DNA of 37,518 bases. Source: a virus. Shown piece after piece: positions 664 to 37,439 of this stretch (the first letter of the stretch is position 1; the number at the start of each line of letters is the position of its first letter). Position numbers and translations under genes: made by a program. The notes beneath the pieces were generated by a model. The model searched no databases and was not told where the DNA came from. It worked only from the letters and a program-made list of their open reading frames with translations. The DNA is taken from positions 1-37,518 of IMG/VR virus record IMGVR_UViG_3300048023_000340, one strand, 5' to 3'.

Positions 664-1099
664 ACCAGCAAGTAAAAAAACAGCTGAACAAGCTACAGAT
701 ATGAAAGCCGACCCAGGTTATCAAGACTTGTATGTACCAAGGAAGAGTGGCGACCCAACAGGACAAAGTAAAGTTATTAACGACACATTAGCACCGGGAC
801 TTAGTGCAGAAACTACTGGACCGGAAGGAGAAGCAGTAAATGCAAAAATAAATCAACCAGCTTCACCTATAGCATTAGGTGCACCTACTAAATTTGGAAG
901 TACTCCTATAACTAATGGTTTAAGAACAGCGGGTGCAAACATTCCAGGTAAACCACAAATGGATGTAGAGGCTTATTGGATGGGTTTGTTTGATGAATTT
1001 CGTGACCCAATGATAGCTGAATATTTAACTAACGATACTTTTGTAGCACCAAGAGTAGAAAAAGTTGGACCACAAAACGCAGATACAGAAACTTTCTAA
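656..1099 (+). CDS. Hypothetical protein, 147 aa
   Basis: No family recognised. The start is placed at ATG 656, whose ATGCGTAA overlaps the upstream stop by 8 bases, the same junction type used elsewhere here. An in-frame ATG at 641 would add five residues, and neither has a strong ribosome site. The N-terminus is basic (RKPASKKT); the middle is Gly/Pro/Ala/Thr-rich and probably disordered; the last 50 residues look folded (YWMGLFDEFRDPMIAEYL). The stop overlaps the next start (TAATG). Likely a minor virion or assembly protein, by position only. Confidence 0.65.
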   Translation: MRKPASKKTAEQATDMKADPGYQDLYVPRKSGDPTGQSKVINDTLAPGLSAETTGPEGEAVNAKINQPASPIALGAPTKFGSTPITNGLRTAGANIPGKPQMDVEAYWMGLFDEFRDPMIAEYLTNDTFVAPRVEKVGPQNADTETF

Positions 1100-4000
1100 T
1101 GCGTGGTTCATCGTTTTTTTCTGCTTCACATATAAGCGAGGCAATAGCTAGAGAAACTTTAAACAGAGTTAACTCTTACAAGCAAGGCCAAAAAATGTCT
1201 AAGACACCTCAAGGCCAAGAGTTAGTTAACAACTTTGTAGGACTAGGTAGAACATATCCTAATGTACCATTTAAAATGAATGCCTATCAAGCAATGGCTG
1301 GTACGCAAGAAGATGATACTGTAGCTTTTGCAACTGCTATGAAAACAGCAGAAATATTAGCAGAGCAATACCAGGTAGAACCAGTGACAGAAGTAGGTGG
1401 ATTAAAACGAGCATTCCAAGTAGGTATCTTAGGTCTTGACAGTATGTTTCAACCAGTATCAAGAGGTTTTAAATCAGCAGTAGTCGCTGCACAAGCAGAA
1501 GGTAAATCAGTTCCAGGCACAGTTGCACTAGCAACATTAGCTGGAATACCGGAAATACTTGTTGGTGATAAAGGTGAAGGTGGAGGTGCGTTCACACAAG
1601 GTGTTTTAAATGCATTACTTGGTGATGGTGTTGGTGATAAATACAGAGAAGCTAGAGATGCGTATGGACCATCAGAGTTAACTAGATATGTACAAGAAAA
1701 AAGAAAAGGTAATCCTATAAACCTAGGAGATGGATTAATGCCTAACTCTGTAGATTTAACTAAAACACAAGAATACTTAAATGCTATTCGTGCTGGTGAA
1801 AGTACACAAGTAGCTTATAACAAAGCTAAAGCTATTTATGGTAGAGATATTACAAATGCTTTTGACCAAGCAGAAGATAGGTTTAAATATACAACTAAGC
1901 GTGGAGAAAAAATAAATATATCTCCAGGAAGAGTTATTGCATCTACAATGACTAACCCTGGAAGCACAGGATACAGTGTTATATCCGGACTTATTGATGG
2001 TGTTTTTAGAGTAGCTGCTGACCCTATGAACTTAGCACTTATGTATGGTGCTGGAACTAAAACTGCAATGAGAACAATGTTAAATGCTAATAAAGCTGCA
2101 ACAAGAATTGGAACTCCTGCTTATAAGAATGCACAGTTTTGGAAAGGTTTTTTACCAGGTAAAACAGGTAAAGAAAACAGAGCATTGTTTTATGGTAAAA
2201 CAGCAGATGAAGTATTAACAGAAGAGTGGGGTATAAAGTTTACAAGAGCTTTAGCAGATTTAGATGGAGATGAAGGATTAGCATTTTTACGAGATATAAA
2301 AGAGTTTGATAGATTACCAGTATCAGTATTGCAAGTTCTTAATGTAGTAGATGACCCATTGCATATTAAACAAATACTAGAAACTGTAGCTAAAGCAGGA
2401 AGATTAACAGACCAAAACTACGATGATATGTTTAATATCATAAAAGAATATTTACCAGCTAATAAAAAAATAGAACTAGACAATGTTAGACAACTGACCA
2501 AAAGCAATAAAAACTTAGGGCTAAAAGTATTGCCTTATAAACCTACTGCTTATGGTGAGTTTTTTAATTATATGAACAAAGTAATTCTAGGTAAAACTAC
2601 AGAAGTAGCACCATTTAGAAAATTACTTGCACTAGGAACAGATAATCCAGTAAAAGGAATACTAGGTGCATCACAACAACTTAAATTAATGTTACCAAAA
2701 CATATGCAGAGAGCTTTAGCACTTAGACCGGAAACAGTAGTAATGGTTACAGAACTAGACAACAGCGTTAAGAATATAGACAATATGCTTAAAGCTGCAT
2801 TTGTTGACCCAAAGACAAGAGGTGCATATATTCGTGAAGGACTACAAGCAACAAGTCAAACACAATTAGATGACTTAGTTAATAGAGCCAATATGGATAT
2901 TGCTGGAAGTATTATAGATAAAAACCCTAACTTAAAATTTGATGTAGAAGATATTGTAAAACAACAAGAAAACTTTTCTGCACAAATGGAAGAGTTAAGA
3001 AGTTTCTTTAGTGGTACAGCTGGTTCTCTTGCATTTAACGGAACTAAAATTAAAAAACGATATAAGACATTAATAAAAGATTTAGAAGAGTATTACAAAA
3101 GAGCTGGTATTAAAGACTTTGACCCAACAGATTTGGAAAGATATGTGTATGAAGCAGTACCTACTATGCATTTATTATCACAAGCAAGCGGTTCATTCTC
3201 TTTACTTATGGACCCACAAGATATACTTCGTGCATCAAAAGCACATCAGCAATTAATAGGACCGGAGGAAAGTTTATTAAAAGCCTGGGGTAAAAACATA
3301 GGAGTTATACAGGACAAAGACTGGGTAAAAGAATTTAAAATTCCTAGAAGAGCATATGAAGGACAAGGTAAATTAAAACCACAAGGAAGCATAGACTATA
3401 TGTTTAATACATTTCAAAATGATTTCCTGAAACCTTTATGGATGATTAGGTTAGCTTTGTTGCTTCGTGTAGTTCCGGAAGAAGGTTTGAGAAACGCATA
3501 TGCAGGAAATGTTAATCCATTTACAAAATTCTTAACTAGATTATCTCTTACTTCTAATAAATACTATGACTTTTTTGAAGGAAGTAGAGCAGAAGCAGTA
3601 GCAAGAATATGGAACAATACCGGTGAGTTAGTAATGTCAACACAAATGAAACCGGAAGATATACAGTTTATGTTAAAGATGCTAGATGAAAGTGATGTTG
3701 CAGCTTTAAATGCAATGGATTACGGACAAGCAGAAAAACTAATTAAACGATACTTGCTAGAAACTAATTACAGTGGTGAAGTTAGTGAGTATATGGTTGA
3801 TGCAGCAGTCAATGGATTTGATGTAAGAAATGTAAAGTTTGCAGAACTTACAGAAAAAACATTTAATGCTAAAAAGAAAACTATTAAGGCCGAAGCTAAA
3901 GGTGCAATACAAGGATACGATGGAAATACCTATAACTCTATGGGTGAAGCAATACTTGCAACTGGTGGTTTTTCAGTAGATTTATCTAAACAAGGATTTA

Positions 4001-7000
4001 TAGACTTAGGATACAGAGGACCAGCAGAAGGTGATGTATTCGTATCTGCTTATAAAAATAAAGAAATGCAAATAGGTAATGTTGGCGAAATAGAAAAAGA
4101 AGCAGCTAAGTATGGTATAACACCAGCAGAATATTTAGATACACAAATAGATAATTTATTTTTTGATGATGACACAGTTGCATTGTTGGCTAAAGACAAA
4201 CACGCAATGGGTGTTTATACAGACAAAGATGGAAATATTATGTTAGATGTAGCGGTAGGACTTAGTGGTGATAATGCTATAACTAATGCTGCAATGATAG
4301 GTATGAATGCATTCCAGGAAAGTGTTTATGTAGTTAATAGACAAACAGCAATAGATGCAGGATTTGGTAAAGCATTAGGAAACTTAGATAATAGTAATTT
4401 AATATTTTTACATTTAGTAGAAGAAGGTAAAGGTGCTAAATCAATTAACATTGATAGTGTTATTAATAAACCAGCACTAGAGGCATTGTTTAAATCTAAC
4501 TTTGATGCATTAAAAATATCAGTAGATGAAGTTAAGGGTGCCGCACAAGGATTACCAGGTGGTAGTTTAATGAATAACACACCGGAGTATATGTCATCTA
4601 TGGGTGACCAAGCATTAACAGCTGCATTTAAAACAGGTCGTAAAGATTTAATTGAAAATATGTTTATACAAGTTGATAAGTATTTAGGTGATGGAAGTAT
4701 TAATCCTAGATACTGGGAAGCATTATGGAGTGAAATAGAACTACTAGCTACTGACCCTATTGCAGTAAGAGTAGCGAATATGGGAATAGATGAAGCATTC
4801 AAATATTTTAGAAATGAAGGTAGTGAAATTATAGATGACTTAGTTAGAAGAAGTTTTAACGAAGAAGATAAAATATATGGATTAAAAAATGCTGCTGGTG
4901 ATAAAGCATTCAAAGAATATTTAGAGAGTGTTCAATATAGAATAGCAAGGCTTATAGGTGCAGACCATCAAATACTAGACCCAGTAACAAACATACCAAT
5001 ATCTGCGGAAGCTGCAAGACAAGTAGGATTTAAAGATGGATATAAAATATATCCTAAATTTACAAGCGACTTAAATTCAGTTAAGAGTTCACAAATATTA
5101 GAAATGATTAGAACTGGTGGTGTTCTTAATAGGAAAGACTGGGTTAAATGGAAACAACATAACCAGTTGCTTAAAGGTAATTCAGTTAGAACAGGTGGTA
5201 AAAGTATTAAAGGACAAGCTAACCAGGCATTCTATAAAGAATTAATTGAAGAATTATCATCGGAAGTTGATAAAGCAGGATTAGGCCCTATGTCATTACC
5301 AGCTAAGTTTGATGGTTCACAAAGAATAAGTGAAAGCGGAACAATGGTAGTTGGAGATAAGATAGTAGCAGCTGGATATTTTGATGATGCTAATTATAAT
5401 CCTGGTGCTATGGGTGGTTACAAAAAAATAATAGATACTGCTTATGATAGTTTACTTGCAAGCCCATCTAGTCGTTTAAACAGGGACCCATTGTTTAGGT
5501 ATGCATTCTATGAAAATGCAATAGAGGCTATGGCCTATATGGATGATGCAACTAAAGCAGAGTTTTTAAAAGGTGCAGAAGCCTGGGTAGATGGTAATAA
5601 ACTATGGGACCAGCTAATAGAAGCTGCTAAACAACCGGCAGTTGAAAATACAATTACTTCTCTTAAACAAGCAGAAGATATATTAAAAGCTAAAGCAATG
5701 GAAGAAGTAAAAACAATATTGTATTCTACAAATCAAAGACATATGGCCAGCGATTTGTTTAACAAGTACATACCATTCCCGGAAATATGGGCAGAGGTAT
5801 TCCAATCTTGGGGTAAATTAATACAAGAAAATCCACAGAAGTTTAATAAAACAAGAATTGCAATAGACAATGGTGAAGAAGCAAAACCTTGGGATAGTGA
5901 AAATGGTTTCTTAGAAGAGGACCCAAGAACAGGCAAGATGATGTTTAACTATGTAGATGCATTGAACTTATTATCATTTGGTGTTGCCGGTAGGGCATTG
6001 AAAGCAGTAGCACAACAGACAGCTTTTGGTGAAAACTTAGAAGATGAAGGTGTAAGAATGTCTTTACCAGGATATGCTAGCGGTCTTAACTTAATAGCAC
6101 AGAATGGTTTCGCACCAGGTTTTGGACCATTAGTTACAATACCAGCAAATATAATTGCACAAAGAATGCCGGTTCCTAAAGGAATACAAGATTTCTTTTT
6201 AGGTTCTTTCGGTAGAGGTAATCCTCTTGACCAGCTACCAGCCTGGCTACAAAAATTATTTACAAACGAAAATACTTACAGTGTAGAACGACAAGCACAA
6301 TTTGGTACAGCAGTTATGGATACTTATACAGGATTTGTATTAGCAGGTTTAGTTGACCAAACAGACCAAAACAGTATTGATAAATATATGAATAAAGCAT
6401 TTGACCAAGCAGGTAAATTATTTATTTTTAGAGGAACTACACAATTTACATTACCTACTGGAATACAACCAAGGATAGAAGTAGAAGATAAAGATGGAAC
6501 TTGGTGGACAACACAGGCCTTAAAATCTAAATACGATGAGTTGTTAATTAAGAATGGGTATGATTACATACAAACAGATATGGATTTTGAAAAGAAGTTT
6601 GGTATAAATCCTATTCCATTAACACAATCTAAGAACCAAAGTATGGGTAAAAAACCAGTAAAGGAACATTCATACTTTTGGTGGAACCAAGATAATAGAA
6701 AAGACATACTTGAACCAGGTGCATTACCCAACACTGGTGTGTATATACAACCGGACAAAATAGAAGATGAATTATATTATCCAGCATTTTATGAGATAGA
6801 AAGTCAAAACTTAAATCCAAGACAATATGCAGAGTTTATGCAACAGTCACAAGCTATCTTTGAATTAGAAAAAAAGAAAGTAGATATAAGAAATAATGAA
6901 CCGGAACGAAACTGGGAAGATGCATATGCAGATGCTAAAAGAGAAATACAAGATGAGTATGGTATTGCTAACATTTACAATTTTGTAGGAAAGCAACAAA

Positions 7001-7380
7001 GAGCAAAGATAGAAACTATTATGTCTGAACTTTCAAATTGGGGAGATTATGAACTTACTAAAAATTCACCGGAGTATGCATTTGTAGTAGAATATGTACA
7101 AAGAAGAAACGAAGTTCTTGATGTATTTCTTAATAATGGAAATTACACATACACTAACAGGTATGGGCAAAGTGAAACATTAAGAATTAGAGGTTCTTCA
7201 AGAAGTAATCCAGTGTTAAGTGGTAGTAGCGATGACTACTTAGAAGCACAGGAAGTAATGAGATTTATATGGGAGGACATCGTGGCTAAGAGTGAAGGTA
7301 CAAACTTTAGACAATTAGCTAATGAAGTATTGTTTTACGAAATAAGCCCAGTCAACCCAACAAATATAAAGGATAGATAA
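1099..7380 (+). CDS. Giant virion-type protein, 2093 aa, unknown function
   Basis: This is the largest gene, one sixth of the window, and is coupled on both sides by TAATG. No enzymatic motif was recognised. It is largely helical and soluble-looking, with scattered hydrophobic, glycine-containing stretches. Examples lie near residues 110-155, 290-320, about 775-800 (LWMIRLALLLRVVPEEG) and about 1630-1720 (GYASGLNLIAQNGFAPG). Size, helical content and position among structural genes fit a protein packaged inside the head and ejected with DNA, as internal virion proteins are in short-tailed phages. A tape measure is less likely, because no tail-tube or sheath genes are visible and the gene precedes the capsid gene. 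The function is inferred only. Confidence 0.85.
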   Translation: MRGSSFFSASHISEAIARETLNRVNSYKQGQKMSKTPQGQELVNNFVGLGRTYPNVPFKMNAYQAMAGTQEDDTVAFATAMKTAEILAEQYQVEPVTEVGGLKRAFQVGILGLDSMFQPVSRGFKSAVVAAQAEGKSVPGTVALATLAGIPEILVGDKGEGGGAFTQGVLNALLGDGVGDKYREARDAYGPSELTRYVQEKRKGNPINLGDGLMPNSVDLTKTQEYLNAIRAGESTQVAYNKAKAIYGRDITNAFDQAEDRFKYTTKRGEKINISPGRVIASTMTNPGSTGYSVISGLIDGVFRVAADPMNLALMYGAGTKTAMRTMLNANKAATRIGTPAYKNAQFWKGFLPGKTGKENRALFYGKTADEVLTEEWGIKFTRALADLDGDEGLAFLRDIKEFDRLPVSVLQVLNVVDDPLHIKQILETVAKAGRLTDQNYDDMFNIIKEYLPANKKIELDNVRQLTKSNKNLGLKVLPYKPTAYGEFFNYMNKVILGKTTEVAPFRKLLALGTDNPVKGILGASQQLKLMLPKHMQRALALRPETVVMVTELDNSVKNIDNMLKAAFVDPKTRGAYIREGLQATSQTQLDDLVNRANMDIAGSIIDKNPNLKFDVEDIVKQQENFSAQMEELRSFFSGTAGSLAFNGTKIKKRYKTLIKDLEEYYKRAGIKDFDPTDLERYVYEAVPTMHLLSQASGSFSLLMDPQDILRASKAHQQLIGPEESLLKAWGKNIGVIQDKDWVKEFKIPRRAYEGQGKLKPQGSIDYMFNTFQNDFLKPLWMIRLALLLRVVPEEGLRNAYAGNVNPFTKFLTRLSLTSNKYYDFFEGSRAEAVARIWNNTGELVMSTQMKPEDIQFMLKMLDESDVAALNAMDYGQAEKLIKRYLLETNYSGEVSEYMVDAAVNGFDVRNVKFAELTEKTFNAKKKTIKAEAKGAIQGYDGNTYNSMGEAILATGGFSVDLSKQGFIDLGYRGPAEGDVFVSAYKNKEMQIGNVGEIEKEAAKYGITPAEYLDTQIDNLFFDDDTVALLAKDKHAMGVYTDKDGNIMLDVAVGLSGDNAITNAAMIGMNAFQESVYVVNRQTAIDAGFGKALGNLDNSNLIFLHLVEEGKGAKSINIDSVINKPALEALFKSNFDALKISVDEVKGAAQGLPGGSLMNNTPEYMSSMGDQALTAAFKTGRKDLIENMFIQVDKYLGDGSINPRYWEALWSEIELLATDPIAVRVANMGIDEAFKYFRNEGSEIIDDLVRRSFNEEDKIYGLKNAAGDKAFKEYLESVQYRIARLIGADHQILDPVTNIPISAEAARQVGFKDGYKIYPKFTSDLNSVKSSQILEMIRTGGVLNRKDWVKWKQHNQLLKGNSVRTGGKSIKGQANQAFYKELIEELSSEVDKAGLGPMSLPAKFDGSQRISESGTMVVGDKIVAAGYFDDANYNPGAMGGYKKIIDTAYDSLLASPSSRLNRDPLFRYAFYENAIEAMAYMDDATKAEFLKGAEAWVDGNKLWDQLIEAAKQPAVENTITSLKQAEDILKAKAMEEVKTILYSTNQRHMASDLFNKYIPFPEIWAEVFQSWGKLIQENPQKFNKTRIAIDNGEEAKPWDSENGFLEEDPRTGKMMFNYVDALNLLSFGVAGRALKAVAQQTAFGENLEDEGVRMSLPGYASGLNLIAQNGFAPGFGPLVTIPANIIAQRMPVPKGIQDFFLGSFGRGNPLDQLPAWLQKLFTNENTYSVERQAQFGTAVMDTYTGFVLAGLVDQTDQNSIDKYMNKAFDQAGKLFIFRGTTQFTLPTGIQPRIEVEDKDGTWWTTQALKSKYDELLIKNGYDYIQTDMDFEKKFGINPIPLTQSKNQSMGKKPVKEHSYFWWNQDNRKDILEPGALPNTGVYIQPDKIEDELYYPAFYEIESQNLNPRQYAEFMQQSQAIFELEKKKVDIRNNEPERNWEDAYADAKREIQDEYGIANIYNFVGKQQRAKIETIMSELSNWGDYELTKNSPEYAFVVEYVQRRNEVLDVFLNNGNYTYTNRYGQSETLRIRGSSRSNPVLSGSSDDYLEAQEVMRFIWEDIVAKSEGTNFRQLANEVLFYEISPVNPTNIKDR

Positions 7381-36686: not shown

Positions 36687-36781
36687 TAGAAGAGAACATC
36701 ATATCCTTTCTAGGACATTTGTTCCCCTTTCTATTGTGTTGAGAGATGAGCCGACCAGCAATGGCCGGCCATTTCTTTTTA
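36687..36781 (+). ncRNA. Candidate small structured RNA, about 95 bases
   Basis: Bounded by a promoter (36654-36680) and a terminator-like stem ending in TCTTTTT (36774-36780). Internal pairing is visible: GAACA (36693-36697) with TGTTC (36719-36723), and within it TCCT with AGGA. No reading frame of note. It could equally be the leader of the zinc-ribbon gene at 36800. Confidence 0.35.
36753..36780 (+). terminator. Terminator-like stem-loop
   Basis: GCCGACC can pair with GGCCGGC with one mismatch, or the perfect palindrome AATGGCCGGCCATT can fold alone. Either is followed by TCTTTTT. Confidence 0.5.
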
Positions 36782-36977: not shown

Positions 36978-37064
36978 ATGTGTGCCGGCTGCGGTGGACA
37001 CTATACATATCCCTTTACTAGCAAAGATTATTTTATGTGTAATTCTTGTTGGAAAACTCTATAA
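36978..37064 (+). CDS. Tiny zinc-ribbon protein, 28 aa
   Basis: ATG 36978 with AAGAGAG upstream. The product reads MCAGCGGHYTYPFTSKDYFM then CNSCWKTL: two C-x2-C knuckles, the first followed by G, in the standard zinc-ribbon layout. A longer frame from ATG 36861 is open, but it overlaps the other zinc-ribbon gene in a different frame and would run across the promoter at 36924, so the short form is preferred. Confidence 0.5.
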   Translation: MCAGCGGHYTYPFTSKDYFMCNSCWKTL

Positions 37065-37079
37065 AAAAATTTTTTTTCT

Positions 37080-37108
37080 GCCTCGTATAAACGAGGCTAC
37101 TCTATAAT
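37080..37108 (+). promoter_or_regulatory. Hairpin promoter with degenerate palindrome
   Basis: Arms GCCTC (37080-37084) and GAGGC (37093-37097) enclose GTATAAAC (37085-37092). TATAAT (37103-37108) follows the core by 10 bases. This mirrors the leftward hairpin-plus-(-10) units at 33793, 34305 and 34742 with different arms. Confidence 0.5.
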
Positions 37109-37113
37109 AAATC

Positions 37114-37338
37114 TGCCTGGAAAAAGTTTCTAGGTACTGTATGAGGATACAGTTGAAGAAGAAAATAGCGTTTCTCTTTACAGATATGACAGCCCTGTTG
37201 TTGAGTTGAGTGAGATTGATTATTTCTTTTTTCTTTCATAGAGAAGGTGTGAGGACTTTTAACTAAAGACACAACTGCCTTCTCGCAACAAAGTTGGACA
37301 CTTTGTAAGGTCACTAAACCTCCTTCGGGAGGTTTTGT
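37114..37338 (+). ncRNA. Candidate structured RNA, about 225 bases
   Basis: Starts just after a TATAAT box and ends in a strong intrinsic terminator. Hairpins in order: CCTGGAAA/TTTCTAGG (37116-37123/37127-37134); ACTGTAT/ATACAGT with GAGG loop (37136-37142/37147-37153); a composite arm GAGAAGG/CCTTCTC (37241-37247/37278-37284) containing TGTG/CACA and CTTT/AAAG; ACAAAGT/ACTTTGT (37288-37294/37300-37306); and the terminator. Stem density is far above what the coding regions show. I did not match it to a known RNA class. Confidence 0.55.
37316..37337 (+). terminator. Strong intrinsic terminator with UUCG loop
   Basis: AAACCTCC (37316-37323) pairs perfectly with GGAGGTTT (37328-37335) around TTCG, the very stable C(UUCG)G tetraloop, and TT follows the stem. 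Ends the candidate RNA. Confidence 0.8.
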
Positions 37339-37367
37339 GCTATTATGAATTAAAAGAGGAGGAATGT

Positions 37368-37439
37368 ATGCCTAAAGGAATTGGATACCCTAAAGGAATG
37401 GCTAAAAAGAAAAAAGCCAAAAAGAAGAAGAAAAAATAA
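37368..37439 (+). CDS. Very basic small protein, 23 aa
   Basis: ATG 37368 follows AGAGGAGG; the ATG at 37364 is too close and stops at once. The product is MPKGIGYPKGMAKKKKAKKK plus three lysines. Short MPKG...KKK proteins are common in phage genomes; nucleic-acid binding is likely from charge. The stop overlaps the next start (TAATG). Confidence 0.6.
   Translation: MPKGIGYPKGMAKKKKAKKKKKK

Follow-up and report, generated by a model that had tools for sequence, protein, structure and literature searches.

A modular family of conserved structured RNAs near the late genes of uncultured marine phages

We show that positions 37115–37340 on the plus strand of a linear, 37,518-base record from an uncultured marine phage (the window, by which we mean this whole stretch of DNA) hold a member of a conserved structured RNA family. 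The family comprises at least 115 distinct phage sequences, and the RNA measures about 225 nt here, with lengths in relatives ranging from about 60 to 290 nt. Covariation and a plus-strand bias, both drawn from the comparison of relatives, are the decisive evidence that the interval encodes an RNA. We think it rather likely that it is a stand-alone, plus-strand structured phage RNA that has its own host-sigma-type promoter, ends at a hairpin and acts in trans. A preliminary description of this DNA had proposed a new phage RNA delimited by a hairpin promoter and a UUCG terminator. The observation itself is confirmed: the palindrome, the −10 element, stem-loops H1, H2, D and H5, and a perfect 8-bp UUCG hairpin are all present in the sequence. 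The non-coding character, the promoter region and the 3′ hairpin withstood comparison, whereas the hairpin promoter and its proposed link to other palindromes did not. The elements of the window discussed below are these:

37063–37077, plus strand: A7T8 tract, UP-element-like part of the putative RNA promoter (conserved A/T tract upstream)
37080–37097, no strand assigned: 7-bp perfect palindrome, the former "hairpin promoter"
37103–37108, plus strand: conserved −10 element, TATAAT
37115–37340, plus strand: the RNA, matching covariance model R1 at 59.9 bits (E 1.5e-9); its transcript ends are inferred
37116–37134, plus strand: hairpin H1 (6/6 pairs changed on both sides; 98.9% paired)
37137–37152, plus strand: hairpin H2 with a GRGG tetraloop, GAAA in some relatives (6/6 pairs changed on both sides; 94.9% paired)
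37155–37240, plus strand: central region, closed by purine/pyrimidine helix P3 (37155–37169 with 37223–37240)
37241–37284, plus strand: domain D, optional, here in its short form (28 distinct D copies were aligned, this one included)
37288–37306, plus strand: hairpin H5, with UGGAC in its loop and belonging to the minimal core (pattern scan; retention in minimal copies)
37316–37335, plus strand: 3′ UUCG hairpin, perfect 8 bp, probable intrinsic terminator
37338–37346, plus strand: extended −10 TGCTATTAT of the late operon, directly past the RNA (TGnTAnnnT in relatives)
37368–37438, plus strand: first late gene, for a small basic protein (MPKGIGYPKG...)
from 37439, plus strand: gene for an 85-aa protein, cut by the window end
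36449–36545, minus strand: core of a second RNA, within a conserved non-coding block at about 35690–36652

Folding of 37080–37340 was better than that of all 200 shuffles (z −4.7). The interior alone folds weakly (z −1.9, with 10/200 shuffles equally good), as does the opposite strand of 37113–37340 (z −1.9), so single-sequence folding of the interior was unconvincing by itself as proof of an RNA and comparison had to decide. Model R1 was built from a seed of 25, taken from a first set of 49 distinct homologues collected by pattern, with the window outside the seed. This covariance model, a check that had been suggested at the outset, finds the RNA across relatives, with matches in 42/59 and 34/71 sources; of 16 records, 11 match, each with a single copy. 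In an alignment of 60 distinct homologues, 96.1% of cells pair, and two-sided changes affect 25 of 35 pairs, against 13 in shuffles; double-change cells number 260, compared with a shuffled mean of 78 and with 8–29 when the structure is slid. The signal is carried by H1, H2 and the 3′ hairpin, whose 12-pair helix is 99.4% paired with 8 pairs changed on both sides. Support is weaker for P3 (90.5% paired in alignment A4), where changes are mostly one-sided; P3 and H5 are both conserved and vary little, and their pairing is therefore less tested. G-U exceeds A-C (157 to 33 cells), as expected of a plus-strand RNA, in an alignment fitted to a model that itself leans that way.

Relatives in IMG/VR were gathered through three proteins: a SprT-like protein (28 loci), the terminase (77 loci) and the 85-aa late protein, for which 80 of 598 were kept, so that the distribution of the RNA reported here is a lower bound. 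The 115 distinct loci were drawn from 127 model-match rows compiled by hand, omitting contigs already represented, rows below 40 bits and the 3′-truncated matches L023 and L026; upstream counts refer to the 100 of them with at least 70 nt of upstream DNA. A blastn search of the window's end region against 50,697 isolate phage records gave no relative. Isolates with a relative of the 85-aa protein (CRP-6, CRP-901, HTVC106P and Kolga) carry it in other contexts, and the regions fetched from them had no model match. As for the host, the capsid protein is similar to those of actinophages, and three terminase relatives lie in one Actinomycetota metagenome-assembled genome (MAG); the other terminase-bearing MAG records carry the names Gammaproteobacteria, Rhodobacteraceae and Flavobacteriaceae. 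None of the 15 virus records tested had WhiB. A contig of an Actinomycetota MAG (L184) was considered as a carrier of the RNA and not accepted (23 bits, E 0.03), and the H5 pattern occurred in 0 of 395 genomes drawn from the class of that MAG.

The region upstream supports the earlier proposal that the RNA has its own promoter region. An A4+T5+ tract lies 25–44 nt upstream in 90 of the 100 homologues with enough upstream DNA, and a −10 is found near the expected place in all 100 by the loose pattern TANNNT and in 67 as TATANT. The window has no recognisable −35, which is why a consensus scan missed the putative promoter; since the scan flagged neither promoter nor terminator, we infer both from conservation. 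The 7-bp palindrome, which had been taken for a working hairpin promoter, occurs in only 5 of 92 homologues with the A/T tract, what is conserved being that tract and the −10. An N4-type hairpin promoter, which requires a conserved promoter hairpin, was rejected on the same count, and the palindrome is probably a clade-specific DNA operator. Its proposed kinship with the palindromes dispersed through the window did not hold either. The dispersed unit TGTTTAAACA, present in 17 copies against 0.19 expected between 9543 and 34757 (eight of them TTGTTTAAACAA), is a different sequence, and relatives of the promoter palindrome keep the GCCTCG/CGAGGC arms while the centre changes; any likeness to TGTTTAAACA therefore falls in the wrong part. 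As a putative dispersed operator, TGTTTAAACA is reminiscent of the stoperators of phage L5. Sequence searches gave no support for a hairpin-reading virion polymerase: by sequence, a 2093-aa protein in the virion region (1099–7380, plus strand) matched nothing significantly in PHROG, Pfam or PDB, although distant homology is possible. In two relatives, accessory genes are inserted directly upstream of the RNA promoter (L013, 3200–3840; L005, 2620–3200), each behind its own A/T-rich tract.

At the other end, the 3′ hairpin is probably an intrinsic terminator. Its U run is short and lies mostly inside the stem, and the consensus scan did not call the hairpin a terminator. Distant homologues conserve the stem with loops other than UUCG, so the hairpin and stem of the proposed UUCG terminator stand, but the UUCG loop itself is not essential. 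The location noted earlier, near the packaging end, is typical of the family: 94 of the 115 loci have the RNA directly before late genes, a convergent minus-strand gene intervenes in 13, and 8 have another or unknown context. Comparison with relatives places the end of the window inside the 85-aa protein gene, slightly ahead of the terminase gene. This position makes a leader with antitermination the main rival explanation. In a cis-acting leader of the late operon, transcription from 37103 would stop at the hairpin beginning at 37316, and a phage factor bound to H5, H1 or H2 would be needed for read-through into the packaging genes; the minimal form of the RNA, one hairpin plus terminator, looks attenuator-like. 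Both the predominance of loci before late genes and the short, unflagged U run count against a stand-alone RNA. Nevertheless, among loci that lack a convergent gene, 101 of 102 have the sequence TGnTAnnnT behind the RNA, whereas none of the 13 loci with such a gene does, two tallies being combined; the raw tally was 101/107 and 0/8, and the six misses are the five remaining convergent loci and L153. Moreover, in the 13 convergent loci the RNA is not in line with the late genes, the convergent gene ending 1–3 nt past the RNA in eight of them. Because of this extended −10 and these loci, the RNA is probably not the leader of the late operon, a role we consider unlikely, and on this sequence evidence it is best read as its own unit, with the late genes under a putative promoter of their own.

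The late leader of lambda (6S RNA, pR′–tR′) is an RNA of about 200 nt that directly precedes the late genes and has a promoter and a terminator of its own, and lambda pR′–tR′ (with Q) and HK022 put are leader models with read-through into late genes. The marine RNA resembles the lambda leader in size, in its predicted promoter and terminator and in its place before late genes; it differs in having fresh promoter sequence behind it, loci with a convergent gene and a multi-helix conserved fold.

Two further explanations are far less probable than a leader. The adjacency of packaging genes in most loci could point to a packaging or virion RNA, similar to the pRNA of phi29, that serves the neighbouring terminase, yet several modules are variable or absent, and some related records, although these may be fragments, have no match; we regard this as very unlikely. 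It is just as improbable that the hairpins are by-products of a DNA-level site, such as an operator cluster, cos/pac or an origin: packaging genes are near and some clades have promoter palindromes, but the excess of G-U over A-C, the variable loop lengths and the framing of the structure by promoter and 3′ hairpin speak for RNA. A small protein gene has next to no chance, given that the 70-aa minus-strand ORF of the window has no counterpart frame common to the 60 distinct homologues, whose closed ORFs of at least 40 aa (1 plus-strand and 10 minus-strand) align in only a few close pairs, and that the lengths of the 45 homologues without D fall in all three classes modulo 3. The absence of a conserved frame agrees with the preliminary finding of no convincing gene.

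The RNA likewise fits no known class, as had been remarked before. Rfam 15 gave no match at the gathering cut-off in the window and 15 distinct related loci, and relaxed E-values gave only weak matches in or around the RNA interval, far below gathering. tmRNA was rejected, with no ARAGORN gene in the window and no Rfam match at 37080–37340. The literature searched, which left subscription papers and preprints aside, held no earlier description of the RNA.

Comparison of the smallest copies with the longer ones reveals an invariant core, consisting of the UGGAC hairpin H5 and the 3′ hairpin, around which other hairpins have been gained or lost. Only these two follow the promoter in L245, L205, L223 and L208, and L219 has H1 in addition. 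A scan of IMG/VR with the H5 pattern returned 55 stretches, 54 of them within the RNA family: three had been matched previously, and of the 52 newly found, 51 score at least 40 bits against the model, the exception (L231, 16.7 bits) appearing to be unrelated sequence. In H5 the ACAGT arms are spaced by anything from 6 to 10, yet UGGAC is constant, a pattern easier to reconcile with an RNA contact than with a DNA operator. Optional parts include an extra hairpin with a AAAUAAAUA loop and domain D, which occurs in a short and a long form and, within this RNA, at a single position flanked by the central pyrimidine stretch and H5.

Domain D is also found outside the first RNA. In L246, L248, L249, L251, L262 and L266 it forms an insert within a second conserved RNA, encoded on the opposite strand, and L254 and L264 also carry it outside the first RNA. 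Our alignment of its 28 distinct copies excludes the pattern hits in L091, L271 and L275 as unrelated sequence, and has 17 long rows, one of which (L268) is a short form picked up by the wrong end. We considered whether D resembles ribozymes or riboswitches and set the idea aside. The second RNA carries the motifs AACUAGGGU...CCUAUUA...GGGAGGG...CACAGGG; in 32 sequences, 14 of its 33 predicted pairs change on both sides. It had no Rfam match in the window, and it is present in L151 and L125, where the first RNA gave no match. It is possible, though we would stop short of calling it probable, that D acts as a portable domain of RNA (a protein-binding or docking unit, or an aptamer), plugged into a constant position of the first RNA and into a helix of the second. 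If so, these phages would run a family of RNA scaffolds built from exchangeable modules, in the way that phage proteins exchange domains. Downstream of the second RNA, L246 (1086–1195, minus strand) has a truncated tmRNA-like tRNA domain with a short insert replacing the mRNA part; its match to Rfam family RF00023 reaches 38 bits (E 1.2e-13), short of the gathering score of 47.

Under the stand-alone reading that we favour, transcription would start from the promoter region at 37103 and end at the 3′ hairpin, and the product would act in trans, with the UGGAC hairpin, which neighbours the 3′ hairpin, as its indispensable part. What it does is the point of which we are least sure. We tentatively suggest a binding platform or decoy, in which the UGGAC hairpin holds one host or phage protein and optional hairpins (the GRGG loop, the AAAUAAAUA loop and domain D) may add or tune contacts, since this would account for a core that stays constant while the additions are exchanged. 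Pairing with the start regions of the phage's own genes was no better than in shuffles by a simple duplex test (mean −21.4 versus −21.3 kcal/mol over 47 starts).

Small phage RNAs that act on other RNAs in trans, as decoys or antisense, have precedents in AgvB, AsxR and c4, as described in a review of phage sRNAs (PMC12197685). c4 is listed in Rfam as RF01695, according to PMC2864571; the marine RNA, in contrast, has no Rfam match. GOLLD and ROOL are ornate structured bacterial RNAs (PMC12286853), and the marine RNA is far smaller, again with no Rfam match. Among these large RNAs, GOLLD is phage-associated. A further parallel may lie in the Rhodococcus phage WC1 and the Mycobacterium phages D29 and Kampy, for which PMC10986025 reports highly expressed non-coding RNAs of unknown function, likewise from non-coding regions and some near genome ends. 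High expression is documented for these actinophage RNAs, whereas the marine RNA is predicted from sequence; both 7-kb ends of D29 gave no model match. The family may nonetheless bear on these unexplained abundant RNAs of cultured actinophages.

For uncultured marine phages, in which function is revealed almost entirely by proteins, our results contribute an RNA family with good support, and the covariance models make the family findable. One domain common to two otherwise different RNAs renders the exchange of non-coding RNA modules directly testable, and the minimal copies show which hairpin to study first.

Two other stretches came to light in these loci. Upstream of the terminase, a conserved-looking segment with the motifs CCTTGGGTA ... 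CCTTTACCTG or TTCACCTG lies at about 5790–5920 in L183, 4520–4640 in L184 and 230–350 in L219. On the minus strand of the window, at about 36700–36745, AGAAAGGGG (AGAAAGGAGG in relatives) forms a strong ribosome-binding site, and the very short frames after it are possible leader peptides.
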